A DNA stretch of 64,000 bases, from positions 1,550,001-1,614,000 of the forward strand of contig JAPWJW010000001.1 in the NCBI GenBank assembly GCA_028283825.1, in the 5' to 3' direction. The notes beneath the pieces are model-generated. The model saw only the letters and a program-made list of their open reading frames with translations. It had not been told where the DNA came from and did not search any database. The translations under genes were made by a program, and so were the position numbers. Shown one piece after another: positions 10,523 through 56,694 of the stretch (position 1 is its first letter; every line of letters starts with the position of its first letter). Origin of the DNA: Azospirillaceae bacterium (GTDB lineage: Bacteria; Pseudomonadota; Alphaproteobacteria; Azospirillales; Azospirillaceae).

Positions 10523-10655
10523 CCAGCGGCATAAGGCTGAGCCTTATGCCGCTGTAGGACGCGACCGCGTCCGCCGCAGGTTTCCGGGGAGCGTTAGCGG
10601 ACTGGAAACCGAGGAAGCCCAAGCCCGCGGATGCGGGCGCCCGGCGCCTGAGGGC
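10523..10655 (+). repeat. Dispersed structured repeat, copy A
   Basis: Four-hairpin element. Hairpin 1 GCGGCATAAG/CTTATGCCGC; hairpin 2 GGACGCG/CGCGTCC; hairpin 3 GGTTTCC/GGAAACC enclosing the conserved loop GGGGAGCG..AGCGGACT; hairpin 4 GCCCGC/GCGGGC with loop GGAT; then CGCCCGGCGCCTGAGGG. It lies between the 3' end of cysNC and the start of the efflux adaptor gene. Confidence 0.85.
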
Positions 10656-10677
10656 AAATGCTGCTGAAAAACCTCAA

Positions 10678-12612
10678 TCAGATGGCGGCGCCGTCCACCA
10701 GGTCGGCATCCTCGTCAAAGCGCGACAGCAGCGTGAAGATGTGGTTGGCCGCCTGTTCGGCGGTCATGGCCTGGGTGTCGATGCGCACGTCGGGCGATTC
10801 CGGCGGCTCATAGGCGCTGTCGATGCCGGTGAAGTTGGGCAGCTTGCCGCTGCGCGCCTTGGCGTACAGGCCCTTCACGTCGCGTTCCTCGGCCACCGCC
10901 AGGGGGGTGTCGACGAACACCTCCAGGAACTCGCCCGGGCCCAGCAGCTCGCGCGCCAGCCGCCGTTCCGCCCGGTAGGGGGAGATGAAAGAGACCAGGA
11001 CGATCAATCCTGATTCCACCATCAGCTTGGACACCTCCGCCACGCGGCGAATGTTCTCCACCCGGTCGGCGTCGGTGAAGCCCAGGTCGCGGTTCAGGCC
11101 GTGGCGGACGTTGTCGCCGTCCAGCAGCATGGTGTGGCGGCCGTGGGCGTGCAGCTTCTTTTCCACCAGGTTGGCGATGGTGGACTTGCCCGCACCCGAC
11201 AGGCCGGTGAACCACAGCACGCGGGGCCGCTGGCCCTTCATCTGCGAGCGGGCGCGCTTGTCCACGTCCAGCACTTGCCATGGCACGGTGCGCACGATGG
11301 CGGAGCGGATGAGGCCGGCGGCCACCGTCTCATTGGTCAGCCGGTCGATCAGGATGAAACCGCCGGTATCGCGGTTGTTGCGGTAGACATCGAAGGCCAC
11401 CGCCTGGTCCAGGCTGAGGGTGACCAGCCCGACCTCGTTCAGGGCCAGGGTCTTGGCCGCCAGCTGTTCCAGGGTGTTGACGTTGATCTTGTGCTTCAGC
11501 GTCGCCACCGTGGCCGGCACCGACTTGGCGCCCAGCTTCAGGATGTAGGGACGGCCCGGCAGTAGCGGCGCTTCCGACATCCAGACCAGCGTGGCCTCCA
11601 TCTGGTCGGCCGCCTCGACCGCCTCATCCAGGGACGACAGGACGTCGCCGCGGCTGATGTCGATCTCATCCGCCAGGGTCAGGGTGACCGACTGGCCGGC
11701 GACCGCCACCTCCAGGTCGCCGTCCTGGGTGACGATGCGCGCCACCCGGCTTTCCTGGCCGGAGGGCAATACGCGGATCAGGTCGCCCGGGCGCACGGTG
11801 CCGGCGGCGATGGTGCCGGCGTAGCCGCGGAAGTCCAGGTTGGGGCGGTTGACCCACTGCACCGGCAGGCGGAAGGGGTGGTTGGCGCGGCTGTCCGACA
11901 CCTCCACCGTTTCCAGGTGGCCGATCAGGGTCGGCCCCTGATACCAGGGCATGGCGTCGGTCAGGGTGGTGACGTTGTCGCCCTTCAGGGCCGACAGGGG
12001 AATGGCCTGGATGTCCGTCAGGTCCAGCTGCCGGGCGAAGGCGCGGTATTCCGCTTCCACCCGCGCGAACACCGCCGGGTCATAGCCCATCAGGTCCATC
12101 TTGTTGACGGCCAGGACGATCTTGCGGATGCCCAGCAGGGACACCAGGAAGCTGTGGCGCCGCGTCTGCGGCAGCACGCCCTTGCGCGCGTCGATCAGGA
12201 TGATGGCCAGGTCGGCGGTGGAGGCGCCGGTGACCATGTTGCGCGTGTACTGTTCATGGCCGGGGGTGTCGGCCACGATGAACTTGCGCCGGTCGGTGCT
12301 GAAGAAACGATAGGCGACATCGATGGTGATGCCCTGTTCACGCTCCGCCGACAGGCCGTCGACCAGCAGGGCGAAATCCAGGTCGCCACCTTGCGTGCCG
12401 ACCTTGCGGCTGTCGGCCTCCAGCGCCGCCAGCTGGTCCTCGAACAGCATCTTGCTGTCGTACAGCATGCGGCCTATCAGGGTGCTCTTGCCGTCGTCGA
12501 CGCTGCCGCAGGTGATGAAGCGCAACAGGCTCTTGGATTGCTGGGCTTCCAGGTAGCGCTCGATCTCGCTCACGCCAGCCTCCCCAGAGGCGGACAGGGT
12601 ATCCGGGGCCAT
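10678..12612 (-). CDS. cysNC: Bifunctional CysN/CysC: sulfate adenylyltransferase GTPase subunit and APS kinase
   Basis: A 644-residue fusion. Residues ~30-450 are the GTPase subunit that drives ATP sulfurylase: GSVDDGKST (from residue 36), DTPGHEQY and NKMDL. Residues ~455-630 are adenylylsulfate kinase with P-loop GLSGAGKST and the family segments [15 protein letters not shown] and ISPYRAERR. Together with CysD it makes APS and then PAPS. The fusion corresponds to NodQ/CysNC known from rhizobia and azospirilla. Start 12612 overlaps the cysD stop (TGATG), so translation is coupled. Products feed reductive sulfate assimilation or PAPS-dependent sulfation; a sulfotransferase gene lies ~8 kb away, but a link is only speculative. 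Confidence 0.95.
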
Positions 12613-13595
12613 CAGAAGTACCCTTCCTGCTTCTTCTGCTCCATGGAGGCGCCGCCGTCGCGGTCGATGACGCGGCCCTGGCGTTCCGATGTGCGGGCCA
12701 GCAGCATCTCGCGGATGATGGCCGGCAGGCTGTCGGCGTCGCTGTCGAAGGCGCCGGTCAGGGGGTAGCAGCCCAGGGTGCGGAAGCGCACGCGGCGCTG
12801 CTGCGGCACCTCGCCCGGCTTCAGGGGCATGCGGTCGTCATCCACCATGATCAGGGCGCCGTCACGCTCCACCACCGGGCGTTCGGCGGCAAAGTACAGC
12901 GGCACGATGGGGATGTTTTCCAGGTAGATGTATTCCCAGATGTCCAGCTCGGTCCAATTGGACAGGGGGAAGACGCGGATGCTTTCGCCCTTGTTCTTGC
13001 GGGCGTTGTACAGCTGCCAAAGTTCGGGGCGCTGGTTCTTGGGGTCCCAGCGGTGCTGGTCGGTGCGGAAGCTGAAGATGCGCTCCTTGGCGCGGCTCTT
13101 CTCCTCGTCACGGCGCGCGCCACCGAAGGCCGCGTCAAAGCCGTAGCGGTCCAGCGCTTGCTTCAGCGCCTCCGTCTTCATCACCTGGGTGTGGATGGCG
13201 GAGCCGTGGGTGAAGGGGCCGATGCCGCGGGCCAGGCCTTCGGGGTTGGTGTGGACCAGCAGGTCCAGGCCCAGATCCGCCACGCGCTGGTCGCGGAAGG
13301 CGATCATCTCGCGGAACTTCCAGGTGGTGTCCACGTGCAGCAGGGGGAAGGGCGGTTTGGCCGGGTAAAAGGCCTTCATCGCCAGGTGCAGCATCACCGC
13401 GCTGTCCTTGCCGATGGAATACATCATCACCGGGTTCTGCGTTTCCGCCACCACTTCCCGCAGGATGTGGATGCTTTCCGCCTCCAACCGCTGCAGGTGC
13501 GTCAATCGCGAGGGGGCGATCGTGCCCACAGTCAGGGCGGCCGGAAGGGGGGAAGGGGTCTTGATGATGCTGTCCAACACTGCCGCGTCTTTCAC
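12612..13595 (-). CDS. cysD: Sulfate adenylyltransferase subunit 2
   Basis: Catalytic subunit of ATP sulfurylase (sulfate + ATP to APS + PPi), PAPS-reductase/N-type ATP pyrophosphatase fold. Hallmarks: [18 protein letters not shown], the PP-loop [34 protein letters not shown] and [13 protein letters not shown], ending in the usual EQKKQEGYF. The GTG at 13595 is preferred because GGAAGAG lies 8 nt before it; a GTG at 13625 would add 10 residues. It has a ~30-residue N-terminal extension relative to the shortest homologues. First gene of cysD-cysNC. An inverted repeat at 13649-13672 is a candidate operator. Confidence 0.93.
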
Positions 13596-13648
13596 GTCTA
13601 TCGCTCTTCCGTCACGCAAACGCACTCAAAGGCCAAGCCGTTCCCGAA

Positions 13649-13672
13649 TATGTCCCCGGGGGTGGGAACATA
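13649..13672. promoter_or_regulatory. Inverted repeat upstream of cysD, candidate operator
   Basis: TATGTCCCC (13649-13657) and GGGAACATA (13664-13672) form an imperfect inverted repeat about 55-80 nt upstream of the cysD start. Position and symmetry suit a transcription-factor site for sulfur control, but no factor is identified. The remaining part of the gap to 13900 is AT-rich (notably 13830-13900) with no gene. Confidence 0.35.
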
Positions 13673-13900
13673 GGTCCCAGATTAGTACGCCCGCCGTTGC
13701 ACGCCAAACGCTTACCCGCGCTGTCGCGGTTTTCCATAAAACCCTGTCAAGCGACGTATAACGGAAACTTTCACAGCGGGCTTTGCGTTTATGGAATTGC
13801 TGCGGCCGCGAAAATTACCTAAGGGTGCGACCCGTTAATAACTTCCAATTTATGTATAATTTCTTAACATCTTTGGCGTTATGGGAAACAAACAATTATA

Positions 13901-16900
13901 TCAATGATCTAGATCCAGGAAACGGGCGCCCAGGGCGTTCCAGGATTGGGGCCCGATGACAGCCACCAGTTTTCCCGCCGTCAGCGCCTGGTCGATGTCG
14001 CCGGCGTCGCAGGCGGCCTGAAGATGCCGCGCCGCGTTTTCCAGGCGCCGTAATCCACAGTTCCCGGATGTGGAAAGCAGGTCGTGGGCCTCCCACCGCA
14101 GGGCGTCCAGGTCCAGGTCGGGGCCGGCGGCGGTCAATGCCGCCACCCGCGCCACCCGACTCCCGCCATTCTCCACGAAATTCTGAATCAGGCCCTGGAA
14201 GGCCGGCCCCCCGGCCACCGCCTCCAGCTTCGCCAGCACCCCGGTATCCAGCAGGGGCGGGTCGTCCGCTTCCGGTTCCGGCATGGCCCCGTCTTCCGCA
14301 TCCGCGGGGGGAAGGGCGCCTTGGGAAACGGCGGTCGACCAGTGCGCCACCGCCTCCAGCATCTGGGATTGGCGGAAGGGCTTGTAGACGCAGTCATCCA
14401 TGCCCACCGCCGCGTATTCATCGCTCATCCCCACCATGGCGTTGGCGGTCATGGCCAGGATGGGGGTGCGGGGCCGGCCGGCGGACACCTCCGCCTCGCG
14501 GATGCGGCGGGTGGCCTCCACCCCGTCCATCACCGGCATCTGCACGTCCATCAGCACGATGTCGAAATGGTCACGCTCGCAGGCCGTGACCGCCTGCATG
14601 CCGTCCTCCGCCAAGGCCACGGTATAACCGGCCTTGCGCAGCATCAGGGCGGCGACCGCCTGGTTGGTGGGGTTGTCCTCCACCAGCAGGACGCGGCGAC
14701 CGCCGCCGTCGGCCGGTGCGGCGGGAAGGTCGGGGGCGCAGGGCGGCACCAGGCAGCCGAAGGCCCGCGCCACCGCCTCGTTCAGCGGCAGGCGGCGCAC
14801 CGGCTTGGGCAGCACGGCGTCATAGCGGACCTCGGTGCCGTCATGGTCGCCCTCGACGGAACTGACCAGGATGATGCGCACGTCGGCGAAGCGGGGATCG
14901 GCACGCACCCGTGCCGCCAACTCCGGCCCGTTGAGCCCCGGCATGCGGTGGTCCACCAGCAGCACGTCGAAGGGATCGGCGCTGCCGACAGCCTCTTCCA
15001 GGCGGGCCTGCGCCGCCTCGCCGTCCGCCGCCTCTTCCACCCGCAGGCCCAGGTCGAAGGACAGGTTGTGGGTCAGGATCAGCCGGTTCATCGCCAAATC
15101 GTCCACCACCAGGGCATGGCGGCCGCGCACGCTTTCCAGCGATATCCGCGGGGCCGTGGCCGCCTCCGCCGGCGGCAGCGGCACCTCGAACCAGAAGGTG
15201 GAGCCCTGGCCGGGCGTGCTGTCCACGCCGATGTCGCCGCCCATCAGATCCACCAGTTCGCGACAAATAGCCAGGCCCAGGCCGGTGCCGCCGAAGCGCC
15301 GGGTGACCGAGGCGTCCGCCTGGGAGAACTTCAGGAACAGGCGCTGCACCTGATCGTCGGCCAGGCCGATGCCGGTGTCCTGCACGGTGAAACGCAGGCG
15401 CCGGGCATTGGGCGTGGCGGCGGGCAGGCAGGTGACCACGACGCTGACCCAGCCCTGCTCGGTGAACTTCACGGCGTTGCCGGCCAGGTTCAGCAGGATC
15501 TGGCGCAGGCGGGTGGGGTCGCCGTACCAATGCCGCCGCGCCTCCTCCACCACCAGGACGCCCATCTCTATGCCCTTGTCGCGGGCGCGGGGCGCCAGGA
15601 TGGCGGCCACCCCTTCCATCAGGTCGCCCAAATCGAAGGACAGGCTTTCCAGCTCCACCTTGCCGGCCTCGAGCTTGGAGATGTCGAGGATGTCGTTGAT
15701 CACGCCCAGCAGGGCGTCGGCGCTGTCGCGGATCGTCTCGGCATAGGCCCGCTGCTCCACCGTCAGGCCGGGCGTGTCCAGCAGCAGCTGGACCATGCCC
15801 ACCACCCCGTTCATGGGCGTGCGCACCTCATGGCTCATATTGGCCAGGAAGTCGTTCTTGGCGCGGTTGGCCTCTTCCGCCCGGCGTTTCTCCGCCGCCA
15901 GGGCGCGGGCGCTTTCGCGGGCGACGGTGACGTCCCAATTCACGCCCACGATCTTCCACGGCCGGCCGGCGGCATCGCGTTCCAGCAGGCCGTTGACCTT
16001 GATGTGGCGGATGCTGCCGTCGGGGCGGTGGATGCGGAATTCGGTGTCCAGCGCGCTTTCGCCCCGGATCACCGCCTGGATTTCCGCCCGCATGCGGCCC
16101 AGATCATCCGGATGGCAGCGCGACTGCCAGAGGCTGAAAACCTGCTGGCGGGGCGTGGCCGGATCCACGCCATAGATCTGGAACATATAGGCGTCCCACA
16201 CCAGGGTGTTGGTCGCCAGGTCGTGTTCCCAGACGCCGATGCCGCCGGATTGGGTGGCCAGCGCCAGGCGGTCGCCGGTGGCCATCAGCTTTTCGTTGAT
16301 GGCGCTCAGCTCCTGGGTCATGCCTTCGGCGATGGCCGTGGCCCGGGCGCGCACCAGGTGCAGGTTGGCGGTCAGGGCCGCCAGCATCAGGGCGATGAAG
16401 GCCAGGCTGGCCGCCGCCTCCGCCGCCCCCGCCTGGCCGGCGGAGGCGAAGGCCGGCGCGCGCGTCCAGGCCAGCGTCAGGGTGCGCCCACCTTCCTCCA
16501 CCCGGCTGACCTGCTCAAACCCGGCGGCGTCCGCCGACAGCACCTGGGTGGGCAACACCGGCGTCGGGGCGGACGGCGTCAGCCCCAGGCGGGCGGCCAA
16601 CCGATCCTCTTCGGCATTGGGGGTGAGGGTACGGTACAGCAGCGCGTCGGGGCGGATCTCCGCGCCGTCAAACACGGCCACGTCCACCTCATCCACCATG
16701 CCGCGCAGGGCCTCGCGGAAGAACACCTCCGATATGAAGGGGGCGTAGATCCAGCACAGCAGCGCCTGGCGCCGCTGAATGGGGCTGTCCAACGGCCGGC
16801 CGGGCGCATAGACGGGGATGAAATAAAGGAAACCGAACCGCCGCTGGGCGTCCTGCACCAGGGTGATCCGTTTGGTCAGCGTGGGCTCGCCCGTGTCGCG

Positions 16901-18328: not shown

Positions 18329-18364
18329 CACGCCGCCCGTTCCTCCGCCGGGCGCGTGTCGAAC

Positions 18365-18399
18365 GCGCCGCCCGTTAGCGAAGTCTAACGGGACGGCGC
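18365..18399. other. Strong intergenic hairpin between kinase and hydrolase genes
   Basis: GCGCCG-CCCGTTAG (from 18365) pairs with CTAACGGG-A-CGGCGC (to 18399) around a CGAAGT loop. It lies after the minus-strand CocE-type gene and before the kinase start. There is no T-run, so it may be a terminator needing other factors, or a leader structure of the kinase mRNA. Confidence 0.45.
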
Positions 18400-18435
18400 G
18401 TCCGAATGAAAGCGGCACGATGAAGCGACCGGAAA

Positions 18436-20400: not shown

Positions 20401-20627
20401 CCAAAAATCCCCTTTGCCTGTTCCATCAAATTGCCCGTTCCAGGGGCCCGATGGTCGCGGGCGCCTGGAACGTAGTTGGGCTGAACGATAACGGGGAGGA
20501 CGCGTGCGTCAAACGACCTTCGGTAACGGAAGTGTTACAACGCCGGTCGCGTTGAATCCTTAAGTAGAGTTATTCCGCACCGATGCGCGTCATGATATTG
20601 TTGCGCCGCAACACGGGAGGCGAAACC

Positions 20628-23194: not shown

Positions 23195-23209
23195 TTTAAG
23201 TAATAAGTA

Positions 23210-23361
23210 CCAGCGGCATGAGGCCAAGCCTCATGCCGCTGTAGGCCCCGACCGGGGCCGCCGGACCTTTTCGGGGAGCGTCAGCGGACTAAAAAGGGAG
23301 GACAAGCCAAGGGCCCGGATGGGCCCGCCCGGCGTCTGAGGGGGCCGCACATCAGTGCGGC
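23210..23361 (+). repeat. Dispersed structured repeat, copy B, with fifth hairpin
   Basis: Core 23210-23344. Hairpin 1 GGCATGAG/CTCATGCC; hairpin 2 GGCCCCG/CGGGGCC; hairpin 3 CCTTTT/AAAAGG with the conserved loop; hairpin 4 GGCCC/GGGCC with loop GGAT; tail CGTCTGAGGGG. A fifth hairpin GCCGCAC/GTGCGGC (23344-23361) overlaps the 3' end of the DUF3422 gene. The copy lies between convergent genes. Confidence 0.85.
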
Positions 23362-30667: not shown

Positions 30668-32101
30668 ATGGCGGGCAAGATTTTCGCGGGCGAACGGGTG
30701 CGGCAACTGCGCCAGCAGCGGGGCATGGCCCTGTCCGCCCTGTCCCAGGCCAGCAACCTGTCCATGAGTTATCTAAGCCAGATCGAGAATAATCAACGCC
30801 CGCTCAGCGCCCCGGCCCTGGCCGCCATCTCCGCCGTGTTCGGGGTGGAACAGCACCATTTCGCCGACGACCGCGACCTGCGACTGGGCAGTGAGTTGCG
30901 CGAGGTGCTGGGCGATCCGCTGTTCGCCGACGACGGCTCGGGCCTCAGCGCCATCACCGACGCCGTGCGCGCCGCCCCCGCCATCGCCGGCCAGTTCATC
31001 AAGCTGTACCGCGCCTACCAGCACGTGATGGAGGAGGGGGCGCGCCACCGCCTGGACCAGGATGTGGAGGCCGGCGGTACGGCGCCGTTCCCCTATGACG
31101 ACGTGCGCGACTTCGTGCAGAGCAAGCGCAACCACTTCCCGGCACTGGACGTGGCGGCCGAGTCCCTGTTCGAGGGCCAGGGTTTCGCCTCCACCCGCCT
31201 GCTGGAGGATTTGATCGACTACTTGCGCGACCGGTTTGGTGTGGTCTGCACCGTGTCGCCGGGTTTGGGCGGGGAGGGGGTGCTGTGGCGCTATGACCCC
31301 GCCTTGCGTCAACTGCACCTGTCGGAAAGCGCGCCGCGCGAAAGCCGCATCTTCTTCCTGGCGCAACAGATCGGCCGCCTGCAATTCGCCCCCCTGATCG
31401 AGGAGGAGGTGCGCCGCGCCCCGCTGGGCAGTGCGGAGGCGCGGGCCCTCGCCTATACCGGCCTGGCCAACTACTTCGCCGGCGCCCTGATCCTGCCCTA
31501 CGGCCGCTTCCTGGCGCAGGCGCGGGCCGTGCGCCATGATATCGAGCGCTTGCAGCACCATTTCGGCACCAGTTTCGAACAGGTGTGCCACCGGCTCAGC
31601 ACCATGCAGCGGCCGGGCAACGCCGGCATCCCCTTCTATTTCCTGAAGGTCGACCGGGCCGGCAACATCTTCAAGCGCAGCAGCGCCACCCGTTTCCAGT
31701 TCGCGCGCTTCGGCGGCGCCTGCCCCCTGTGGAACGTGCACGAGGCCTTCGCCCAGCCGGGCCGCATCCTGGTGCAGGTGGCGCGCACGCCCGACGGCAT
31801 CACCTACCTGTGCATCGCCCGCACCGTCACCATGACCGGCGGCGGCCACCTGTCGCGCCCGCGCGAGGCGGCGCTGGGCCTGGGGTGCGAGATCGGGCAC
31901 GCCGGCGACCTGGTCTATGCCGCCGGCCTGGATTTGCAGAACCAGGAAACGGCGGTGCCCATCGGCTCCAGCTGCAAGGTCTGCGACCGCGACGACTGCC
32001 GCCACCGCGCCTTCCCCTCCATCGGGCGCGGCCTGGCCATCGCCGGCCATGAGCGCCACGTGGTGCCGTTCAGCATGATGCCGGCTGGCAGAACGGTATG
32101 A
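30668..32101 (+). CDS. Short-chain fatty acyl-CoA regulator (ScfR/PccR-like), XRE family
   Basis: A 477-residue regulator. N-terminal XRE helix-turn-helix (about residues 6-62): RVRQLRQQRGMALSALSQ, then MSYLSQIENNQRPLS. Then an ImmA/IrrE-type (DUF955) region at ~155-290 and a C-terminal DUF2083 region with Cys-rich GSSCKVCDRDDCRHRAFPS. This architecture is that of ScfR proteins; PccR in Rhodobacter sphaeroides senses propionyl-CoA and controls pccB. Divergent position next to pccB-pccA-mcm supports the same role. The ImmA-like region lacks a clear HExxH, so peptidase activity is unlikely. The stop codon lies inside hairpin 1 of repeat copy C, so the last codons derive from the repeat. Confidence 0.9.
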   Translation: MAGKIFAGERVRQLRQQRGMALSALSQASNLSMSYLSQIENNQRPLSAPALAAISAVFGVEQHHFADDRDLRLGSELREVLGDPLFADDGSGLSAITDAVRAAPAIAGQFIKLYRAYQHVMEEGARHRLDQDVEAGGTAPFPYDDVRDFVQSKRNHFPALDVAAESLFEGQGFASTRLLEDLIDYLRDRFGVVCTVSPGLGGEGVLWRYDPALRQLHLSESAPRESRIFFLAQQIGRLQFAPLIEEEVRRAPLGSAEARALAYTGLANYFAGALILPYGRFLAQARAVRHDIERLQHHFGTSFEQVCHRLSTMQRPGNAGIPFYFLKVDRAGNIFKRSSATRFQFARFGGACPLWNVHEAFAQPGRILVQVARTPDGITYLCIARTVTMTGGGHLSRPREAALGLGCEIGHAGDLVYAAGLDLQNQETAVPIGSSCKVCDRDDCRHRAFPSIGRGLAIAGHERHVVPFSMMPAGRTV

Positions 32102-32219
32102 GCCAGCGGCTCATACCGTAGGCCGCGACTGCGGCCGCCGGAAGTTTTCGGGGAGCGTTAGCGGACTGAGAACTGAGGATAGCCCAAGCCAGCGGATGCT
32201 GGCGCCCGGCGCCTGAAGG
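32094..32219 (+). repeat. Dispersed structured repeat, copy C
   Basis: Hairpin 1 CGGTATGAG/CTCATACCG (32094-32118) overlaps the stop of the preceding regulator gene. Hairpin 2 GGCCGC/GCGGCC; hairpin 3 AGTTTTC/GAGAACT around the conserved loop; hairpin 4 GCCAGC/GCTGGC with loop GGAT; tail CGCCCGGCGCCTGAAGGG. Between convergent genes; no fifth hairpin. Confidence 0.85.
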
Positions 32220-32229
32220 GCTGAAAAAC

Positions 32230-33528: not shown

Positions 33529-33694
33529 CCAGCGGCACGAGAGTTATCTCGTGCCGCTGTAGGACGCGACCGCGTCCGCCGGAGCTTTCCGGGAAACGCA
33601 GTGGACTGGAAAGCGAGGACAAGCCCAGCCAGCGGATGCTGGCGCCCGGCGCTTGAGGGGGGGCAAAGCGGCCTTTGACCAGTCAAAGGCCGCT
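33529..33694 (+). repeat. Dispersed structured repeat, copy D, with fifth hairpin
   Basis: Core 33529-33660. Hairpin 1 GGCACGAG/CTCGTGCC; hairpin 2 GGACGCG/CGCGTCC; hairpin 3 GCTTTCC/GGAAAGC; hairpin 4 GCCAGC/GCTGGC with loop GGAT. A fifth hairpin AGCGGCCTTTGAC/GTCAAAGGCCGCT occupies 33667-33694. Between convergent msrB and the next gene. The hairpin-3 loop deviates slightly (GGGAAACGCAGTGGACT). Confidence 0.85.
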
Positions 33695-43258: not shown

Positions 43259-43296
43259 CGCCCCGCGTCGCGTCGTTTTCTGAGGAGGGGCCGGTC

Positions 43297-46113: not shown

Positions 46114-46119
46114 TCTTAC

Positions 46120-46203
46120 GCCCTCAGGCGCCGGGCGCCGGCATCCGCCGGCTGGGCTCGGTCGCGGCCTAAGCGGCACGCGGGCGGTGCCGCATGCCGC
46201 TGG
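46120..46203 (-). repeat. Dispersed structured repeat, copy E, internally deleted
   Basis: Minus-strand copy of only 84 nt. Hairpin 1 (GCGGCA/TGCCGC), the first arm of hairpin 2 (TAGGCCGCGACC) and hairpin 4 (GCCGGC/GCCGGC with loop GGAT) plus the CGCCCGGCGCCTGAGGG tail are present; hairpin 3 with the conserved loop is missing. Located between convergent kinase and STAS genes. Confidence 0.8.
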
Positions 46204-46221
46204 TAGGTGGGTGGAAGGTGC

Positions 46222-46545: not shown

Positions 46546-46598
46546 AACTTCCTCACTCCGAAAAACGCTGTCCAAAATTGCGGCTGGGGTTGCCGGGC

Positions 46599-47015: not shown

Positions 47016-47127
47016 CCCAACCCCCGTCGTCTCGGCCCCAATCCATTAACCGACTAGCTAACACGAAACAGGAAGCCGGCGAAATTTAAACAACCGTGAC
47101 GGTTTCCTGCGCCGGATGCGATGGATA

Positions 47128-47231
47128 CCGGCGGCGCGAGGCTCTGCCTCGTGCCGCTGTAGGCCCCGACTGGGGCCGCCGGAGATTTCCGGGGAGCGAA
47201 GCGGACTGGTAAGCGAGGAAGCCTAAGCCAC
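47128..47231 (+). repeat. Dispersed structured repeat, copy F, left part
   Basis: Hairpin 1 (GGCGCGAG/CTCGTGCC), hairpin 2 (GGCCCC/GGGGCC), a degenerate hairpin 3 around the conserved loop, and the first arm of hairpin 4 (GCCAC, 47227-47231). The copy then stops. The matching second arm GTGGC and the tail occur at 48581, so this is the left half of a split copy. Confidence 0.8.
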
Positions 47232-47335
47232 CCAATAGGCACGAAGGCTACCCTCGCAAGTTTTGATCATTGTAAATTCCCGTAATGGTAGTATATTGAC
47301 AACCTGATGCAATTCATTAACGACAGGAAGTCAAG

Positions 47336-48139
47336 ATGCGCCGCCCCGTCGTCGTCACTTTGTTGGCCCTCTTTCTGCCTGTCACCGCCGCCATGGCCCA
47401 GACGGCCCAGATCATCACCAAAGATTTCTGTGACGACCAGTCCGGCGCCTTCGACATCGTCTGGGCAACTGGCCAGAAGGACACAGCGCCAGTGTCCGTC
47501 TTCCTCCTGAAAGATAAATTGCAGCCGTTCGTGCCGGTGGAAAAGGGCAAATCTCTCAATGACTTCTCGACTTTCATGGTCAATTCACACGGAGATTGCG
47601 GCCAGGTCGGTCCCCTGACGGCCGCAGAGTTCGCAGAGAAGTTTAAGAAGGAGAAGAAGGACGCCCCTGGGAAGGTAAACTTCTACTCTTGCAACGCCGC
47701 CAAGGCGCCGCCCATTGGCAAGAGCGTGGTCGCGGCCCTTGCGGCGGAATATCCAGGTCCGCCGAGGGCCGATACCGATATCAAGGTCCTGTCGGGTGCC
47801 AAAGAGGCGGCGGCGCTGAGGCCGCCCACTGACGGCAAACCGGTGAGCAAGATCTCGGAGGCCGTCTACTATAGCGGTGTTTCTTCCACTGGAGATAAAA
47901 TCGTAGAGGGTCTTAAGAAGGACTGGAATAAAGAAAAATATCCTGGATCCCTTATGACATATAAAGACTACTGTGTCCATCACGTGATCCCGAGCATTAG
48001 TAACGATTCCACGTTCGACAAGTTTGTAAAACAGATTAATAGTACATTTGGCGATAGATATATCGAGCTTATAAATACAAATTCAGGTGGCGCTGCGTTG
48101 ACGGTGTGTGGAGCTCAGTCAAATACGGCTTGCCCCTAG
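47336..48139 (+). CDS. Secreted protein of unknown function, clan-CD peptidase-like pattern
   Basis: A 267-residue protein with a signal peptide (MRRPVVVTLLALFLPVTAAM, cut near AQ). FMVNSHGDCGQVGPLTAAEF, followed about 25 residues later by KVNFYSCNAAKAPP and then SVVAALAAEYPG, recalls the His-Gly ... Cys arrangement on consecutive strands of clan-CD cysteine peptidases (caspase/C80/CHAT-like). This is a pattern-level inference. The C-terminus carries paired Cys (YCVHHV, VCGAQSNTACP). The DNA is visibly less GC-rich and has more AT-ending codons than its neighbours, especially after 47880. It lies on a segment that splits a repeat and includes an IS481 remnant, suggesting horizontal transfer. 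Confidence 0.6.
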   Translation: MRRPVVVTLLALFLPVTAAMAQTAQIITKDFCDDQSGAFDIVWATGQKDTAPVSVFLLKDKLQPFVPVEKGKSLNDFSTFMVNSHGDCGQVGPLTAAEFAEKFKKEKKDAPGKVNFYSCNAAKAPPIGKSVVAALAAEYPGPPRADTDIKVLSGAKEAAALRPPTDGKPVSKISEAVYYSGVSSTGDKIVEGLKKDWNKEKYPGSLMTYKDYCVHHVIPSISNDSTFDKFVKQINSTFGDRYIELINTNSGGAALTVCGAQSNTACP

Positions 48140-48146
48140 GCGTTTA

Positions 48147-48182
48147 GAGCGAGATGCGATCACGCGTGATCGCATCTCGCTC
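48147..48182. terminator. Perfect 36-bp palindrome after the secreted-protein gene
   Basis: GAGCGAGATGCGATCACG is followed at once by its reverse complement, giving 18 bp of perfect symmetry, then TTTAAG. It can act as a strong terminator-like hairpin 8 nt after the gene. It resembles the next palindrome (48201-48244). Confidence 0.6.
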
Positions 48183-48200
48183 TTTAAGCTGTTCATGATA

Positions 48201-48244
48201 GAGCGGAACGCGATCAGGTGATGCCACCTGATCGCGTTCCGCTC
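48201..48244. repeat. 20-bp stem palindrome at the end of the IS481 remnant
   Basis: GAGCGGAACGCGATCAGGTG (48201-48220) pairs perfectly with 48225-48244 across a 4-nt loop. It shares the pattern GAGCGRRAYGCGATCA with the palindrome at 48147, so both belong to one family. It interrupts the C-terminal end of the transposase remnant. Confidence 0.6.
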
Positions 48245-48540
48245 CAATCCAGGATTTTGATGAATTGGATCGAGCCTGAATCACTCGTGCTCTTTTGTTC
48301 ATGTTTTGCAGATGAACTGTAGGGCGTCAGGCCCTTTAGGGCCTTGAGCCGCCGGCGATAATTATAGGCGTCGATGAAGACGCAGAGATGAGCTTCGAGC
48401 CGCTGATGGCTGTCGTAGTGATAGCGTTTGGCAGTGGCTTCCTCGTTAGTCCGGTTCATCCGCTCGACCTGATCGTTGGTCCAGGGACGCTTCACCCTTG
48501 TCAGGCGGTGGTCGATGGCTTGGCAGGCTTGTCCCCTTCC
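48245..48540 (-). pseudogene. IS481-family transposase, C-terminal remnant
   Basis: The minus-strand frame encodes only the end of an IS481 DDE transposase: IDHRLTRVKRPWTNDQVERM with the final catalytic Glu of QVERMN, then KRYHYDSHQRLEAHLCVFID and YRRRLKALKGLTPY. The helix-turn-helix and first two Asp are missing, and after GSIQFIKILDW the frame runs into the palindrome at 48201-48244. It is therefore inactive. It marks the region between repeat halves as mobile-element debris. Confidence 0.85.
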
Positions 48541-48580
48541 ACCTCCGGCAGCCTGCTGATGTCGTGTCGCTGAAGACACC

Positions 48581-48634
48581 GTGGCCGCCCGGCGATTGAG
48601 GGGCGGTATTTGAGCGGCCACGATCAAATACCGC
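48581..48634 (+). repeat. Dispersed structured repeat, copy F, right part, with fifth hairpin
   Basis: Starts with the second arm of hairpin 4 (GTGGC) and the tail CGCCCGGCGATTGAGGGG, then a fifth hairpin GCGGTATTTGA/TCAAATACCGC (48603-48634). That hairpin is nearly the same as the one after copy G. The head of the copy is at 47128-47231. Confidence 0.75.
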
Positions 48635-48727
48635 GTGTATGACACCCATAACGGCATGGTGTTTGCCGGGCGGACGCTGCACAGTCGCGGCCGTCATACG
48701 GATGCACAAACCTGGACTGGACTGTTG

Positions 48728-49642: not shown

Positions 49643-49667
49643 GCGGCCATCGGAAAGCGGAATAATA

Positions 49668-49831
49668 TCAGCGGCACGAGATTTGGCTCGTGCCGCTGTA
49701 GGCCCCGACTGGGGCCGCCGGACCTTTTCGGGGAGCCGAAGGCGGACTGAAAAGGGAGGATAAGGCAAGGCCACGGATGTGGCCGCCCGCCGTTTGAGGG
49801 GCGGTATTTGATCATCACGATCAAATACCGC
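49668..49831 (+). repeat. Dispersed structured repeat, copy G, with fifth hairpin
   Basis: Hairpin 1 GGCACGAG/CTCGTGCC; hairpin 2 GGCCCC/GGGGCC; hairpin 3 CCTTTTC/GAAAAGG; hairpin 4 GGCCAC/GTGGCC with loop GGAT; tail CGCCCGCCGTTTGAGGG. Fifth hairpin GCGGTATTTGATC/GATCAAATACCGC at 49801-49831. Between convergent CDF-like and MCP genes. Confidence 0.85.
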
Positions 49832-49842
49832 GCGTATAAGGA

Positions 49843-51147: not shown

Positions 51148-51331
51148 ATCTGACCGTCCAGGTTGCATTTTCTAGGTTGCCGACCCGTCTTTACTAGGGT
51201 CATCACCGGTCAGATGGCGCAAGGGCAGGACTGGTCAAGGAAGAACGTCTGTACCACTTTAATGGTAGCCCGTTTGGCTGATATGCACGCCGATTAGCGG
51301 CACGCCTACCCCCGGTGGAACGGCTGTACCG

Positions 51332-52573
51332 TCAGCGGAACCTTAGGGCCAGGGCGGTGATGTCGTCCGCCTGCGGGGCGCCGTCGGCGAAATCGACCAC
51401 GGCGTTGAACACCCCCGTCACCATGGCGCGCGGCGTGGTGTTGGCCGCCAGCGTTTCCGTCAGCCGGGCCCGGCCGAAGAAGGCACCGGCCGCGTTCTCC
51501 GCCTCGGTGATGCCGTCGGAAAACAGCAGGACGCTGTCGCCCGGCGTCAGGGTGAAGGGATGGCTGCGGTAGGCCATGTCCTCCAAGGCGCCCAGCGGCG
51601 GCTGCGGGGCGGGGGGCAGCAGGGGGCGCACATCGCCGTCGGCGGTGCGCAGCATGGGCATCTCATGCGCGGCGATGGCCAATTGGCCCTGGCCGGTGAC
51701 CATGTCGATCACGCCCACGGCGGCCGTGACGAAGGTGGCCTCGTGGTTCTCACGCACCAGATCGTCGTTGGCGCGGGCCAGCACCGTGGCGGGATCGACA
51801 CTTACGCCTGGCTGCTCCGCCAGATGGCGGGCGGAGGCGCGGAACAGGCCCAGCGTGCGCGCCATGGTCAGCGCCGCCGGCGCACCCTTGCCCGACACGT
51901 CGGCCACGGCGAACAGCAGGGTGGTGCCATCCAGGCGGATGGCGTCGTAGAAGTCGCCGCCCACCTGGCGGGCCGGCACCATGGCGGCGTGCAGGTCGAC
52001 GCGATGCCCCGCCAGATGGGCGAAGGCGCTGGGCACCAGGGCCAGTTGCGCCAGCCGGGCGCTTTCCAGTTCCGCCTCCAGCCCCTTCAGGCGCTGGGCC
52101 GCCAGGTCACGCAGCCGCTTCTTCTCCAGCACCGCCGACAGGCGGGCACGCAGCAGCGGCAGGTCGAAGGACTTGGGCAGGTAATCCTCCGCCCCCAACT
52201 CGATGCAGCGGACGATGGCCGACATCTCGGTATGGGCGGAAATGACGATGACCGGCGGGTCGCGCCGGCGCTGGGCCCGCAGGCGTTCCAGCACGCCGAA
52301 ACCATCCAGCGCCGGCATCTCGATATCCAGCAGCACGATGTCGAAGCGCGCCGTCTCGATGTTCGCCAGGGCCTGGATGCCGTCGGTGGCGGTGGTGATG
52401 TTGCTGTAGCCCAGTTCGCCCAGGCGCCGCGACAGCAGCAGCCGGTTGAAGGAACTGTCGTCCACCACCAGGATGGCGATGTTGGACTTGTCGTCACCGG
52501 ACGCGGGGGATGTGACCGCAGCCGGAAGGTCGGCCGCGCCAGCCGATGGCAAGGACGTCAGGGTATCGCTCAT
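51332..52573 (-). CDS. Response regulator with PP2C-type phosphatase output (RsbU/SpoIIE-like)
   Basis: A 413-residue protein. REC domain ~30-150: ILVVDDSSFNR, Asp83 in DIVLLDIEMPALDG and Lys of YLPKSFD. Helical linker (~155-190) with LRDLAAQRLKGLEAELESA. PP2C domain ~195-410: PARQVGGDFYDAIRL, FAVADVSGKGAPAALTMA, LLFSDGITEAEN and GAPQADDITALAL provide the metal-binding Asp residues. It should dephosphorylate a STAS antagonist in response to phosphorylation; the STAS gene at 46222 is the only candidate nearby. Start ATG 52573; GTG 52591 is an alternative. Confidence 0.93.
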   Translation of the reverse strand: MSDTLTSLPSAGAADLPAAVTSPASGDDKSNIAILVVDDSSFNRLLLSRRLGELGYSNITTATDGIQALANIETARFDIVLLDIEMPALDGFGVLERLRAQRRRDPPVIVISAHTEMSAIVRCIELGAEDYLPKSFDLPLLRARLSAVLEKKRLRDLAAQRLKGLEAELESARLAQLALVPSAFAHLAGHRVDLHAAMVPARQVGGDFYDAIRLDGTTLLFAVADVSGKGAPAALTMARTLGLFRASARHLAEQPGVSVDPATVLARANDDLVRENHEATFVTAAVGVIDMVTGQGQLAIAAHEMPMLRTADGDVRPLLPPAPQPPLGALEDMAYRSHPFTLTPGDSVLLFSDGITEAENAAGAFFGRARLTETLAANTTPRAMVTGVFNAVVDFADGAPQADDITALALRFR

Positions 52574-52711
52574 GGCGCGCGGCAACTCCACCGGTCTGTT
52601 GGGGACGGCGGTGGCCTGCCCGTCAGTGCTGTCTCACTGTATATAGCCAGCCGCGCGGTGGGCAAAGGCCGTTCCTGCCATCGGCCGCGGTAATTCCGTC
52701 GCCGGAACCAT

Positions 52712-53632
52712 TCAGTCGGGCAGCAGGGCCGGCGATGACCGCCGTGCGGTCAGGGCAGCACCAACCGAGGCGACGATGACGGTGGCCACGGCCAGCCAGT
52801 GCAGCGGCGACAGTGTCTCCCCCAGCAGGACCATGGCGATCAGGGCGCCCACCGCCGGCTCGGCGCTGGTCAGGGTGCCGAAGGTCTGGGCCGGCAGGCG
52901 GCGCAGGGCGTACATTTCCAGGGTGTAGGGCAGGGCGCTGGACAGGGCCCCCACCATCACCGCCGGCAGCAGGACGGCCGGCTGCAGCAGCGTGGCGGCA
53001 CCGGTGTCGGCCACCCCCACGGGCAGGACGATGGCGGCGGCGATCAGGGTGCCCACCGCCGTCGCCTGGGTGCCATGGTCGCCGCCGGCCCGCTTGCCCG
53101 CCACGATGTACAGCGCCCAGAAGACACCGGCGCCCAGGGCATAGGCGATGCCGCGCGGGTCCAGGGGTGGTTCAGCCGCAGACGGCGCCAGCGGCAACAG
53201 CAGGGCCAAACCCACCACCGCCAGCCCGATCCACAGGAAGTCCGCGCGGCGGCGCGACGACAGCAGGGCCAGGCCCAGGGGGCCGGTGAACTCCACCGCG
53301 ATGGCGATGCCCACCGGGATGGTCTGCAAGGCCATGTAGAACAGTGTGTTCATGCCGGCCATGGCCCCGCCATAGACCAGCAGCGGCCGCCAGCTGCGGC
53401 GTGACAGCCGGATGCGCCAAGGCCGCAGCAGCACGAACAGCATCAGGGCCGCCGTCGTCAGGCGCAGCGCCGTGGTGCCGTGCGCGCCCGTCACCGGGAA
53501 CAGCGTCTTGGCGATGGAGGCACCGGTGGTCACCGACACCATGGCGGCGAACAGGGCCGCCATCGGCAGCAGGGCCGACAGGGACGCGGACGCGGCGGCG
53601 CCGGGCGGGGAGAGGGCGGTATCGTGCGGCAT
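52712..53632 (-). CDS. EamA-type exporter, RhtA-like
   Basis: A 306-residue inner-membrane transporter of the drug/metabolite superfamily with ten TM helices in two EamA repeats (residues ~22-150 and ~160-290). GASIAKTLFPVTGAHGTTALR and MYALRRLPAQTFGTLTSAEP (with PAVGAL next) match the RhtA (threonine/homoserine exporter) subgroup. It exports amino acids or related metabolites; exact substrate unknown. The divergent Lrp-type regulator at 53784 fits amino-acid efflux control, as Lrp regulators often sit beside such exporters. Confidence 0.9.
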   Translation of the reverse strand: MPHDTALSPPGAAASASLSALLPMAALFAAMVSVTTGASIAKTLFPVTGAHGTTALRLTTAALMLFVLLRPWRIRLSRRSWRPLLVYGGAMAGMNTLFYMALQTIPVGIAIAVEFTGPLGLALLSSRRRADFLWIGLAVVGLALLLPLAPSAAEPPLDPRGIAYALGAGVFWALYIVAGKRAGGDHGTQATAVGTLIAAAIVLPVGVADTGAATLLQPAVLLPAVMVGALSSALPYTLEMYALRRLPAQTFGTLTSAEPAVGALIAMVLLGETLSPLHWLAVATVIVASVGAALTARRSSPALLPD

Positions 53633-53783
53633 GGAAGGGATCGTCTTGGGCGGTCAAGGCCGCCACTCAAGGAAAAGCCGGTGGCGGCACGGCGCGACAT
53701 TTTAGCGATGAACTTTGTTTATTCGTGTCAAAGATGGTCATTTATCGATAAAATTTATCACTGCCTTGCCATGTGAAGACCAA

Positions 53784-54296
53784 ATGGTATCGCCGCCCAC
53801 CGATCTGGACGCCATCGACCGCAAGCTGCTGGAACAGTTGCAGGCGGACGCGCGCCTGCCCATTCCGACCCTGGCGGAACGGGTGGGCCTGTCGGGCCCG
53901 GCCTGCTATCGCCGCATCCGCCGCCTGCGCGAGACCGGCGCCATCGAGCGCGAGGTCGCCATCGTCCGGCCGCGCACCCTGGGCTGGCCCCTGACCATGG
54001 TGGTGCTGGTGACCCTGGAGCGTGACAGCGGCCGGGGACGCAGCGGCACCAACGACGGCAGCGTCATCGACCAGTTCATGCGCAAGCTGGCCACCGTGCC
54101 CGAGGTGGTGGAGGCCTGGTACGTCACCGGCGACCATGACTTCGCCCTGCGCATCGTCGCCCGCGACATGGAAGGCTACGACGCGCTGACGCGCCGCATC
54201 CTGCTGAACGACGAAAACGTCCGCACCTTCAAAACCCTGGTCGTCATGCGCCACGCCAAGCCGTTGAGCCCGGTGCCGGTGCTTGATGGATTATGA
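53784..54296 (+). CDS. Lrp/AsnC family transcriptional regulator
   Basis: A 170-residue regulator. N-terminal winged HTH: DAIDRKLLEQLQADARLPIP, then LAERVGLSGPACYRRIRRLR. C-terminal RAM/AsnC ligand domain with VPEVVEAWYVTGDHDFALRI and LNDENVRTFKTLVVM. Divergent from the RhtA-like exporter (151 bp between starts), the usual arrangement for Lrp-controlled amino-acid exporters. The AT-rich stretch 53700-53770, with TTTATCGATAAAATTTATC, is a good place for the operator. It also precedes the cupin gene by 134 bp, without evidence of co-transcription. Confidence 0.92.
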   Translation: MVSPPTDLDAIDRKLLEQLQADARLPIPTLAERVGLSGPACYRRIRRLRETGAIEREVAIVRPRTLGWPLTMVVLVTLERDSGRGRSGTNDGSVIDQFMRKLATVPEVVEAWYVTGDHDFALRIVARDMEGYDALTRRILLNDENVRTFKTLVVMRHAKPLSPVPVLDGL

Positions 54297-54430
54297 TTTT
54301 ATTTCCATAACGTATATTATCGGTTTAACGCATGCCGGCGGGTGTAGGCGCAAAGTTAAACTGTCAGCCCTGAGCAAAGCAGAAGTGCCAGGCGCGGACT
54401 GCGCGCGGCTGGAAAGGAAATGGAAACGCT

Positions 54431-54787
54431 GTGACCGATACAACCGCCTCGCCCCTCGGCAACCTGCTGGATGCGCTGCCGCCGCCCGCCGAGGATGAAC
54501 GGTTCACCGACATCCTCCGCCGTCCCGGATGCCGCATCGAACAGATCGTCTCCCATGGCCAGACGACGCCGGTGGATCGCCCCTACCGTCAGCCGCACGA
54601 TGAATGGGTGCTGGTCCTGGCCGGGGCCGCGCGGGTGGCGGTGGAGGGCGTGGAGACGGCGCTGTCGCCCGGCGATCATCTGTTCATCCCAGCGGGGGCC
54701 AGCCATTGGGTCACCTTCACCGATCCGGACACGGCCACCGTCTGGCTGGCCGTCCATATCGGCGAGGTCGAAGCGGCGGCGCCGTGA
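54431..54787 (+). CDS. Single-domain cupin protein
   Basis: A 118-residue cupin beginning with GTG at 54431. HDEWVLVLAGAARVAVEG and LSPGDHLFIPAGASHWV form the two cupin motifs, with metal ligands His, Glu (motif 1) and His (motif 2). The usual HxH is reduced to PYRQPHDEW, that is one His. It may bind a metal for a small isomerase or dioxygenase activity, or be a sensing protein. No signal peptide. Upstream AT-rich 54290-54340 may contain its promoter. Function not assignable. Confidence 0.8.
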   Translation: MTDTTASPLGNLLDALPPPAEDERFTDILRRPGCRIEQIVSHGQTTPVDRPYRQPHDEWVLVLAGAARVAVEGVETALSPGDHLFIPAGASHWVTFTDPDTATVWLAVHIGEVEAAAP

Positions 54788-54909
54788 ATAGCGATGCGGC
54801 CCCCTTTCCTTGCATCAATGTTACCGCTATCAATGTGCCTTGGACTTGCCAACCGCCAACGCGCGCGCGGGCCATTGCCTGAATAATGGAACAGAGGAAA
54901 CCCCAGCGC

Positions 54910-56532
54910 ATGAGCACCCCCACCCGCCGCAGCGTGTTCAAGGCGACGTTGACCGGGGCCGCCGCCCTGCCCCTCTCCCTGGCGCCGGGCGCCATCGGGC
55001 GGGCGGCGACAGGACCGGGGGCCGCACCGCGCTGGGGCCGGGGCATCGAGGGGCAGCGCCGGGCCGACCTGGGCGACGGCACCTATCTCAACCCCATCAT
55101 CGCCGGCGACCATCCCGACCCCACCATCCTGAAGGACGGGTCGGACTATTACATGACCTTCTCGTCCTTCTTCGCCTATCCCGGCATCGTCATCTGGCAT
55201 TCCACCGACCTGGTGAACTGGCAGCCGGTGGGGCCGGCGCTGACCAAGCAATTGGGCACCATCTGGGCGGTGGATCTGTGCAAGCACGGCGACCGCTATT
55301 TCATCTATATCCCCGCCAACCCGGGCGACAAGGGCTGGTCCATCTACGCCATCTGGGCCGACGACATCCGGGGCCCGTGGAGCGAGCCGGTGGACCTGAA
55401 GATCTCCGGCTGCATCGATCCCGGCCATGTGGTGGGGGAGGATGGCAAGCGCTATCTGTTCGTGAACGGCGTGCGCTACGTCCGCCTGACCGACGACGGC
55501 CTGGCCACCGATGGCCAGGTCCAGCCGGCCTACAGCCCCTGGCGCTACCCCGAGGACTGGGTGGTGGAGAATTTCGCGCCCGAGGGGCCGAAGCTGCTGC
55601 ACCATGGGGAGTGGTTCTACCTGATCACCGCCGTGGGCGGCACCGCCGGCCCGCCCACCGGCCACATGGTGATCGCCGCCCGTTCCCGCTCCATCCACGG
55701 GCCGTGGGAGCATTGCCCCCATAACCCGCTGGTGCGCACCCTGAGTGCCGATGAGCCCTGGTGGTCGCGCGGCCACGCCTCGCTGGTCGAGGGGCCGGCC
55801 GGTGACTGGTGGATGGTTTATCACGGCTATGAGAACGGCTTCCGCACCCTGGGCCGCCAGACCCTGCTGGAACCGATGGAATGGACGGCCGACGGCTGGT
55901 TCCGCGCCAAGGGCGGCGACCTGTCGAAGCCCTTGCCTAAGCCGAAAGGGGGAAAACCCTCCCCCGCCGGCTTCGCCCTGTCGGACGATTTCAGCCAGGA
56001 TCGCTTCGGCATCCAGTGGGGCTTCCACGACCCCGCCCCCGGTGAGATGGGCCGCGTGACACGGGCGAATGGCCGGCTGACCCTGGCGGGGCGCGATCGC
56101 ACGCCGGCCGACAGCACGCCCCTGGTCTTCCCCGTGGGCGACCGCGCCTATGAGGTGGAGGTGACCATCACCCTGAGCGGCCAGGCCGAGGGCGGCCTGC
56201 TGCTGTTCTACAACCCCAAGGCCTTCATCGGCATCGGCTTCACCCCCGACATCATCAAGACCTTCGAATACGCCGATGAGCTGATCTGGGCCCGCCAGCC
56301 CAAGGCGACCACCGCCGTGCGGGTGCGCCTGACCAACGACCAGAACGTCGTCACCTGGCACTATTCCCACGATGGCGGCAAAACCTGGACCTTGCTGGGC
56401 ACCCGCATGGAGGTGTCGGGCATCCACCACAATGTCTTCGGCGGCTTCATCAGCCTGAAGGTGGGTGTCTACAGCGCCGGCGACGGCGCCATCAGCCTGA
56501 GCGACCTGACGTATCGCGCGCTGGGGGGCTAA
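54910..56532 (+). CDS. Glycoside hydrolase family 43 (beta-xylosidase/arabinosidase type), Tat signal
   Basis: A 540-residue exported enzyme; start 54910 (MSTPTRRSVFKATLTGAAA) gives a twin-Arg leader. GH43 five-blade propeller (~50-330): general base Asp in GDHPDPTILKDGSDYY, pKa-tuning Asp in GCIDPGHV and general acid Glu in VVENFAPEGPKLL; also WWSRGHASLVEG. The C-terminal beta-sandwich (~355-540) is the GH43 C-terminal domain (FGIQWGFHDP, QAEGGLLLFYNPKAFIGIGF). It likely removes xylose or arabinose from plant cell-wall oligosaccharides in the periplasm. No sugar transporter or partner enzyme adjacent. Codons for ATG at 54886 are an alternative start. Confidence 0.92.
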   Translation: MSTPTRRSVFKATLTGAAALPLSLAPGAIGRAATGPGAAPRWGRGIEGQRRADLGDGTYLNPIIAGDHPDPTILKDGSDYYMTFSSFFAYPGIVIWHSTDLVNWQPVGPALTKQLGTIWAVDLCKHGDRYFIYIPANPGDKGWSIYAIWADDIRGPWSEPVDLKISGCIDPGHVVGEDGKRYLFVNGVRYVRLTDDGLATDGQVQPAYSPWRYPEDWVVENFAPEGPKLLHHGEWFYLITAVGGTAGPPTGHMVIAARSRSIHGPWEHCPHNPLVRTLSADEPWWSRGHASLVEGPAGDWWMVYHGYENGFRTLGRQTLLEPMEWTADGWFRAKGGDLSKPLPKPKGGKPSPAGFALSDDFSQDRFGIQWGFHDPAPGEMGRVTRANGRLTLAGRDRTPADSTPLVFPVGDRAYEVEVTITLSGQAEGGLLLFYNPKAFIGIGFTPDIIKTFEYADELIWARQPKATTAVRVRLTNDQNVVTWHYSHDGGKTWTLLGTRMEVSGIHHNVFGGFISLKVGVYSAGDGAISLSDLTYRALGG

Positions 56533-56538
56533 TTTCGT

Positions 56539-56694
56539 GACCGTTGATCATGGCTGATCAACGGTCCCCTCAGGCGGCGGGCGCCGGCATCCGCCGGCTT
56601 GCCTCATCCTCAGTTTTCAGTCCGCTACGCTCCCCAAAAACTTCCGGCGGCCCCGGTCAGGGCCTACAGCGGCATGAAAATCTCATGCCGCTGT
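56539..56694 (-). repeat. Dispersed structured repeat, copy H, with fifth hairpin
   Basis: Minus-strand copy. Hairpin 1 AGCGGCATGA/TCATGCCGCT; hairpin 2 GGCCC/GGGCC; hairpin 3 AGTTTTT/GAAAACT; hairpin 4 GCCGGC/GCCGGC with loop GGAT. Fifth hairpin GACCGTTGATCA/TGATCAACGGTC at 56539-56566 follows the tail. Between convergent GH43 and NRAMP-side genes. Confidence 0.85.

Follow-up and report, generated by a model that had tools for sequence, protein, structure and literature searches.

A dispersed three-hairpin repeat in an Azospirillaceae genome as a probable family of short non-autonomous transposable elements

What keeps a repeat of about 130 nucleotides (nt) in one folded shape while the sequences of its stems change from copy to copy is the question raised by a 64,000-nt stretch of the genome of an Azospirillaceae bacterium (assembly GCA_028283825.1, contig JAPWJW010000001.1, positions 1,550,001 to 1,614,000), referred to below in its whole length as the window. 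Eight copies, designated A to H, are confirmed in it at the places given by the initial annotation, which had been made from the sequence alone and described a structured unit of four hairpins, deleted in copy E and split in copy F. With a probability of about 0.75 the copies represent a family of short non-autonomous elements resembling miniature inverted-repeat transposable elements (MITEs) and carrying a three-hairpin cassette conserved in its fold. In the proposed scheme the element would consist of a target duplication TNA, a TACC-type repeat forming hairpin 1, a core with the tail CTGAGGG, hairpin 5 (GGTA in relatives), and TNA again; it would be mobilised by a DDE-type transposase acting in trans, and the core would ride as a passenger kept for its fold, which would act as a single strand, as RNA more likely than as single-stranded DNA (ssDNA).

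The core and the covariation of its stems

The core comprises hairpin 2 (a stem of 6 bp with the loop GACN), hairpin 3 (a stem of 7–9 bp followed by GGGGA/GGACT, which encloses an inner GC-capped loop), the linker GAGGA, hairpin 4 (an outer GCC/GGC stem, AA opposite GCCC, 6 bp, and the loop GGAT), and the tail CTGAGGG. It is complete in copies A, B, C, D, G, and H; copy E has lost hairpin 3 together with one half of hairpin 2, and in copy F the loop of hairpin 4 is interrupted by an insert of about 1.35 kb. A fifth hairpin lies 3' of the core in copies D, F, G, and H, and hairpin 1 is variable and absent in many copies. The conserved loops and the paired stem changes are as first described, the outer stem of hairpin 4 covarying too.

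The argument for structure is carried by covariation, since the stability of single sequences is not exceptional (the folding energy of six copies gives z from −0.3 to −2.9). The first alignment comprises 28 copies chosen by the loop motif, so that the invariance of the loop in it is by choice (L002 and L015 were dropped from the 30 motif loci). Here 97.0% of 779 cells are paired against 81.4% in shuffles, 108 cells are changed on both sides against 31.9, and covariation amounts to 0.389 against 0.109 ± 0.011 in shuffles and 0.030–0.075 with the partners slid by 1–3 columns. By two weaker measures there are 13 pairs with double change against 10.3 in shuffles (reached in 19 of 500) and 29 further pair types against 26.2 (reached in 63 of 500). 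The second set, 29 model matches collected without the motif from the window, 400 kb of the own genome, and regions of sister species and aligned by model fitting, has 98.1% of its cells paired, double change in 18 of 28 pairs against 11.7 (reached in none of 500 shuffles), covariation of 0.390 against 0.118, and G-C replaced by A-U in the inner stem of hairpin 3 in six copies. In 55 sequences of other genera 15 of 20 pairs are doubly changed, and covariation reaches 0.484, compared with 0.121 after shuffling and no more than 0.079 after sliding. The compensatory stem change claimed from the window is thereby upheld in the motif-chosen and the motif-independent set.

Matched changes are found also at one inherited site (L131:4966), where the core is intact in four species, truncated in one, and reduced to a tail remnant in two. 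Depending on the species, hairpin 4 reads GCCCGC/GCGGGC, GCCAGC/GCTGGC, or GCGGCC/GGCCGC and one pair of hairpin 3 is G-C, G.U, or A-U, while hairpin 1 and the surroundings no longer align; such changes could also stem from gene conversion between paralogs. The neighbours of the site are a nucleoside phosphorylase-like gene (PF01048) and a pseudouridine-phosphate glycosidase-like gene (PF04227), both in the same direction. In one of the genomes (G004) a palindrome of the type GAGC...GCTC sits in the remnant of the element.

The search with a covariance model proposed by the initial annotation finds copies in this genome and across the family. The hairpin-3 loop motif GGGGAGCGNNAGCGGACT has 47 exact occurrences in the 7.16-Mb genome and none read backwards, and the model R1, built from 28 copies of the source genome, detects at least 150 copies. 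In 400 kb sampled outside the window there are 17 copies (one truncated by the end of the stretch), a single one from contig 1 and 16 from contig 3, each of which was sampled over 200 kb; the density is therefore uneven, and a total of about 300 is a rough extrapolation, in line with the hundreds of copies that had been expected. The strand order of the 150 hits listed follows no clear replichore pattern, as judged by eye. Among 103 copies of this genome the median identity to the nearest neighbour is 87%, and the best long match is 94% over 105 nt.

Ends, insertion sites, and candidate movers

In related genomes the complete element measures about 146–171 bp without the duplications, within the limit of 300 bp for a MITE, begins with TACC, ends with GGTA, and is flanked by a 3-bp TNA target duplication, its terminal inverted repeats being TACCAAT.../...ATTGGTA and TACCGCCGAGCG.../...CGCTCGATGATA. 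The element is delimited in the genome G033 by near-identical copies in differing surroundings, where the order is TNA, hairpin 1 with TACCGCCGAGCG, the core, hairpin 5 ending with CGATGATA, and TNA. The flanks, read by eye on the 19 best-scoring copies, of which three are without one end, show identical TNA in 13 of the 16 copies with both ends readable (TGA in nine, TCA in three, and TAA in one). In the genome G026 the end pattern gives 138 hits against none for its reversed control, and when 100 of these places were used for pairing, 24 of 27 facing pairs closer than 4 kb had the same TNA (0.289 expected by chance per pair, P about 1e-10). Loci of Acetobacteraceae and Telmatospirillum yield elements of 152–165 bp including both duplications, in a scan that required the duplications to match. 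In the window copy G keeps both ends, with TAA...TAA around 171 bp and with ends that match each other partly. Judged by the termini and target duplications seen in relatives and in copy G, hairpin 1 is terminal and hairpin 5 is its counterpart. Of the four-hairpin unit of the initial annotation, hairpins 2–4 thus stand as the core, while hairpin 1 is part of the transposon ends and hairpin 5 had been overlooked. Sixteen Azospirillum plasmid records match the form of the element found in G033, and no plasmid record matches copy G. At L135/L156 (G033:C1:1448402-1449414) an IS5-type insertion sequence (IS) element, flanked by TTA at either end, interrupts the arm of hairpin 1 in one copy.

Derivatives poor in core sequence lie between matching duplications. 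In G026 two of them, L377 and L378, measure 88 nt including both duplications; their deletion junction is the same and their target duplications differ. In G033 the palindromes L385 and L387 are without any core and flanked by TGA/TGA. From such derivatives the core is probably cargo, dispensable for movement and kept for its fold; in most copies of the source genome the core is kept and hairpin 5 is not visible.

The regions of six sister species that match the window are collinear with it, and most copies are absent from them. Site A is empty in all four congeners compared and site D in six of six; at site C one sister (G003) has a full copy with different yet matched stems, and two others (G002 and G006) have remnants of hairpin 4. 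In a second region of 60 kb (L130+L131+L132) six of nine sites are copy-free in every collinear congener (five or six for each site), one is shared, and two have a different hairpin-3 subtype in sisters, where a neighbouring pair was counted once and long gaps were covered only by the model and by a permissive motif scan. Over both regions, 8 of the 12 sites compared lack a copy in all collinear sisters, and among the 11 best-scoring loci of relatives no orthologous site was found. The places matching 19919 and 52322 of the second region, counted neither as orthologs nor as empty, carry a second hairpin-3 subtype in G004 and G006, with GAGCACCGCAGGGCG replacing the GGGGAGCG loop in three of the four printed copies; the source genome has the common subtype there.

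From the 3-bp TNA duplication we infer that a DDE-type transposase acting in trans would move the element. The IS5-type copies L199, L202, and L205 of this genome have a TNA duplication by eye, and IS5-family elements here presumably belong to the IS1031-type subgroup; as direct parents IS5-type elements were rejected, because the ends of the multi-copy IS compared start with GAG and not with TACC. A mover of another class would be required if the repeat was of the repetitive extragenic palindrome (REP) or bacterial interspersed mosaic element type, in which an IS200-like REP-associated tyrosine transposase (RAYT) transposes the repeat as a single strand, with a GTAG-tagged hairpin as guide. 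In the first alignment 19 of the 28 copies do carry GTAG at the base of hairpin 2, the copies lie mostly at gene ends, and inverted pairs occur in Sphingomonadales; however, GTAG is not retained in other genera, and complete elements show inverted ends with a duplicated target, which IS200-type movement is not known to make. Besides, Y1_Tnp (PF01797, the IS200/RAYT transposase) was found in none of the seven genomes of the genus and none of the five of genus g12, whose genomes each have between 10 and 144 model matches, in a search positive in 5 of 14 control genomes. A RAYT or IS200 enzyme, absent from all seven genomes of the genus, was accordingly rejected as the mover, and an origin of this kind is regarded as highly improbable.

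Several observations weigh against the reading of the repeat as MITE-like elements with a structured passenger, to which the wobble-pair counts of two further sets and the orientation of the copies, both given in the next section, have to be added. Where both ends of a G026 copy were read by eye, which was the case for seven, the flanks match in three and differ in four. A hairpin of the hairpin-5 type was recognised by eye in 12 of 103 copies of the source genome (a script flagged 20, the others being different; hairpin 1 was flagged by script in 45), so that few copies document the ends within this genus. Near-identical recent copies are missing among the 103 compared, and the 88-nt derivatives might have arisen by recurrent deletion at a single microhomology. 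No autonomous partner with TACC ends was found in G033, among the G026 matches listed, or in the 2.2 Mb searched. The Sphingomonadales copies have no terminal repeats visible by eye, and another way of spreading must therefore exist there.

Action of the fold, gene context, and breadth

The selection for RNA or ssDNA structure that had been proposed from the window agrees with the compensatory change, which extends to the inherited site. RNA is given about an even chance as the acting strand and ssDNA a clearly smaller one, and the preference for RNA is a weak one. In own and congener copies G.U pairs exceed A.C pairs by 20 to 6 (P 0.009), with the count taken over hairpin 2, the six outermost pairs of hairpin 3, and hairpin 4 with its outer stem; in two other sets the counts are 20 to 16 and 9 to 7, and the pooled count of 49 to 29 (P 0.03) comes from copies that are not independent and alignments that are model-fitted. 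Own and congener copies retain one G.U pair of hairpin 3 in 81 of 93 cases, about 30 of these having been chosen by a motif that covers both of its bases; among copies chosen without the motif the figure is 19 of 24. These two figures bear on the alternative that the core is a palindrome at the DNA level, a cruciform or ssDNA whose arms are matched through template switching or a DNA-binding protein, with no role of RNA. The rarity of wobble pairs in hairpins 2 and 4 (about 1% of cells), the lack of a clear excess of G.U over A.C outside the genus, and the absence of an orientation preference described below would agree with it. The persistence of the hairpin-3 G.U pair, the states G-C, G.U, and A-U at the inherited site, and the recurrence of loops and linkers across orders (partly fixed by the search pattern) speak against it, as correction of the arms alone would leave the loops unconserved. 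This alternative is held to be doubtful.

The position of the copies relative to genes was classified with a crude gene caller, which placed 3 of 24 and 6 of 71 copies inside predicted genes. Convergent gaps hold 12 of the 21 classifiable copies against 45 of 213 in the background (Fisher P 0.0007), and divergent gaps hold one against 48 of 213, which is not significant (P 0.09). In gaps between genes of the same direction 15 copies are sense and 14 antisense, without any orientation preference; this set was larger and chosen by motif and score, with one cut copy left out. The gene-context distribution together with the lack of orientation bias suggests harmless insertion rather than a role in the 3' untranslated region (UTR) of the sense strand. 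A domesticated cis-acting 3' UTR element, selected at gene ends for end protection, attenuation, or processing, is consistent with the convergent excess, the single divergent copy, and the copy kept intact between same-direction genes in four species, but it is judged unlikely in view of the equal numbers of sense and antisense copies, the 8 of 12 sites empty in sisters, and the absence of a T run after the tail in the copies inspected, and avoidance of promoters alone could yield the bias to gene ends. Far less credit is given to the view that each copy, or a few of them, yields a trans-acting small RNA, for which there is a parallel in the MITE-derived small RNAs reported for Coxiella (PMC10969869).

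The cassette extends well beyond the genus. An exact pattern of the 3' half of the core matches at least 118 stretches, and among the matches listed (80 titles) are Erythrobacteraceae, Sphingomonadaceae, Acetobacteraceae, Azospirillum, Telmatospirillum, and Terasakiella. A model built from 55 sequences of other genera, with no nameable row from the source genus (13 of the 55 titles not being shown), has matches in 38 of 385 alphaproteobacterial genomes and 31 of 277 genera, where 11 hits in a genome stand for at least 11, and it finds copies in the source genus at E 1.9e-12. Hairpin 3 is short in the copies of other genera; tandem G.A/A.G occupies two hairpin-3 pairs in 34 of 125 of them and one of the two in a further four, and these tandem copies may be one inherited subfamily. 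In Sphingomonadales the copies are often in inverted or tandem pairs. At L240, L251, L266, and L275 of this order inverted pairs about 140–165 bp apart resemble REP pairs, and L173 (G026:C20:21900-23100) contains five head-to-tail core units with a 108-nt period, three of them nearly identical. It is conceivable, if rather doubtful, that the core is a selected RNA cassette older than its carriers, which would have spread on TNA MITEs in Azospirillaceae, Acetobacteraceae, and Telmatospirillum and on Sphingomonadales repeats without terminal inverted repeats; a host protein would then read the loops, and the copies, in their hundreds, would be a set of RNA binding sites at gene ends throughout the genome.

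Features of the window and likeness to known systems

Table 1. Parts of copies A to H in the window (window coordinates; R1, covariance model of the source genome).
Copy	Feature	Position	Strand	Basis
A	Hairpin 1 (5' terminal hairpin)	10524..10554	+	
A	Core (hairpins 2-4 + tail CTGAGGG)	10552..10657	+	cmsearch, model R1, 116.8 bits
B	Hairpin 1	23211..23241	+	
B	Core	23239..23345	+	R1 118.1 bits
C	Hairpin 1	32093..32119	+	
C	Core	32116..32222	+	R1 116.0 bits
D	Hairpin 1	33530..33559	+	
D	Core	33557..33662	+	R1 112.3 bits
D	Hairpin 5 (3' terminal hairpin)	33667..33694	+	
E	Deleted core (half hairpin 2, hairpin 4, tail)	46121..46171	-	R1 34.1 bits
E	Hairpin 1	46172..46201	-	
F	Hairpin 1	47129..47159	+	
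F	Core, 5' part (hairpins 2, 3, left arm of 4)	47160..47231	+	R1 61.4 bits
F	Core, 3' part (right arm of hairpin 4, tail)	48581..48603	+	
F	Hairpin 5	48603..48634	+	
G	Left TAA target duplication	49663..49665	+	sequence
G	Full-length element, 171 bp	49666..49836	+	
G	Hairpin 1	49669-49698	+	
G	Core	49699-49800	+	
G	Hairpin 5	49801-49831	+	
G	Right TAA target duplication	49837..49839	+	sequence
H	Hairpin 5	56539..56566	-	
H	Core	56567..56666	-	R1 115.0 bits
H	Hairpin 1	56667..56693	-	

The insert of copy F (47232-48580) contains an open reading frame of 267 amino acids at 47336-48139 with no Pfam match and, at about 48248-48517, a part with 76% identity to a gene annotated as an IS481 family transposase. 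Between them, at 48140-48240, lies a member of a different palindromic repeat family with the ends GAGC...GCTC; a palindrome resembling this family replaces hairpin 1 in the locus L003. Elsewhere in the window (2697-3728) there are three direct repeats of 183 nt, 63–87% alike, at spacings of 415 and 434 nt.

The statement of the initial annotation that no Rfam family fits is sustained for Rfam 15: at the gathering score there was no match in the window and only one tRNA in ten related loci, and below the cut-off weak hits were obtained for copy G only. The annotation of the sequences tested thus misses the cassette, and should the core be read as RNA, an unannotated structure would be shared by hundreds of gene ends in these bacteria. 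No description of the element was found in the literature searched, which left most subscription papers uncovered. The initial annotation had also allowed that the repeat might prove to be a known IS or MITE; it is MITE-like in kind, and no named family matched.

In two sources (PMC10969869, PMC3733652) bacterial MITEs are described as short and intergenic, with terminal inverted repeats and a target duplication, and as folding when transcribed. One of them (PMC3733652) describes REPs as extragenic hairpins of 20–40 bp, high in copy number and mostly downstream of genes, and the CGTC REP, common in Alphaproteobacteria, as having CGTC at one end, one stem of 8-9 bp, and a loop of 4-5 nt. By this description the CGTC REP was rejected as an identity for the repeat, which as seen by eye is without the CGTC tag and the single stem of 8-9 bp. 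The element shares with GTAG- and CGTC-tagged REPs the extragenic palindromes and the high copy number, and it is unlike them in that RAYT is absent from its genus. With IS5-family elements it has the TNA target duplication in common and differs from them in the ends (TACC instead of GAG), and models of structured single strands such as those of the Rfam 15 families are applicable to it. In description the element resembles the MITEs NEMIS, RUP, ERIC, and QMITE, which are also short and intergenic, with terminal inverted repeats and target duplication. The element is set apart from them, by description only, in that no IS partner was found for it and in that its covarying three-hairpin core is common to several orders, also where terminal inverted repeats are not visible; in our judgement the structural constraint across orders and the matched changes at the inherited site look unusual beside ordinary MITEs. 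The MITE-like kind is known, and what is new is the covarying cassette shared by repeats with and without transposon ends.

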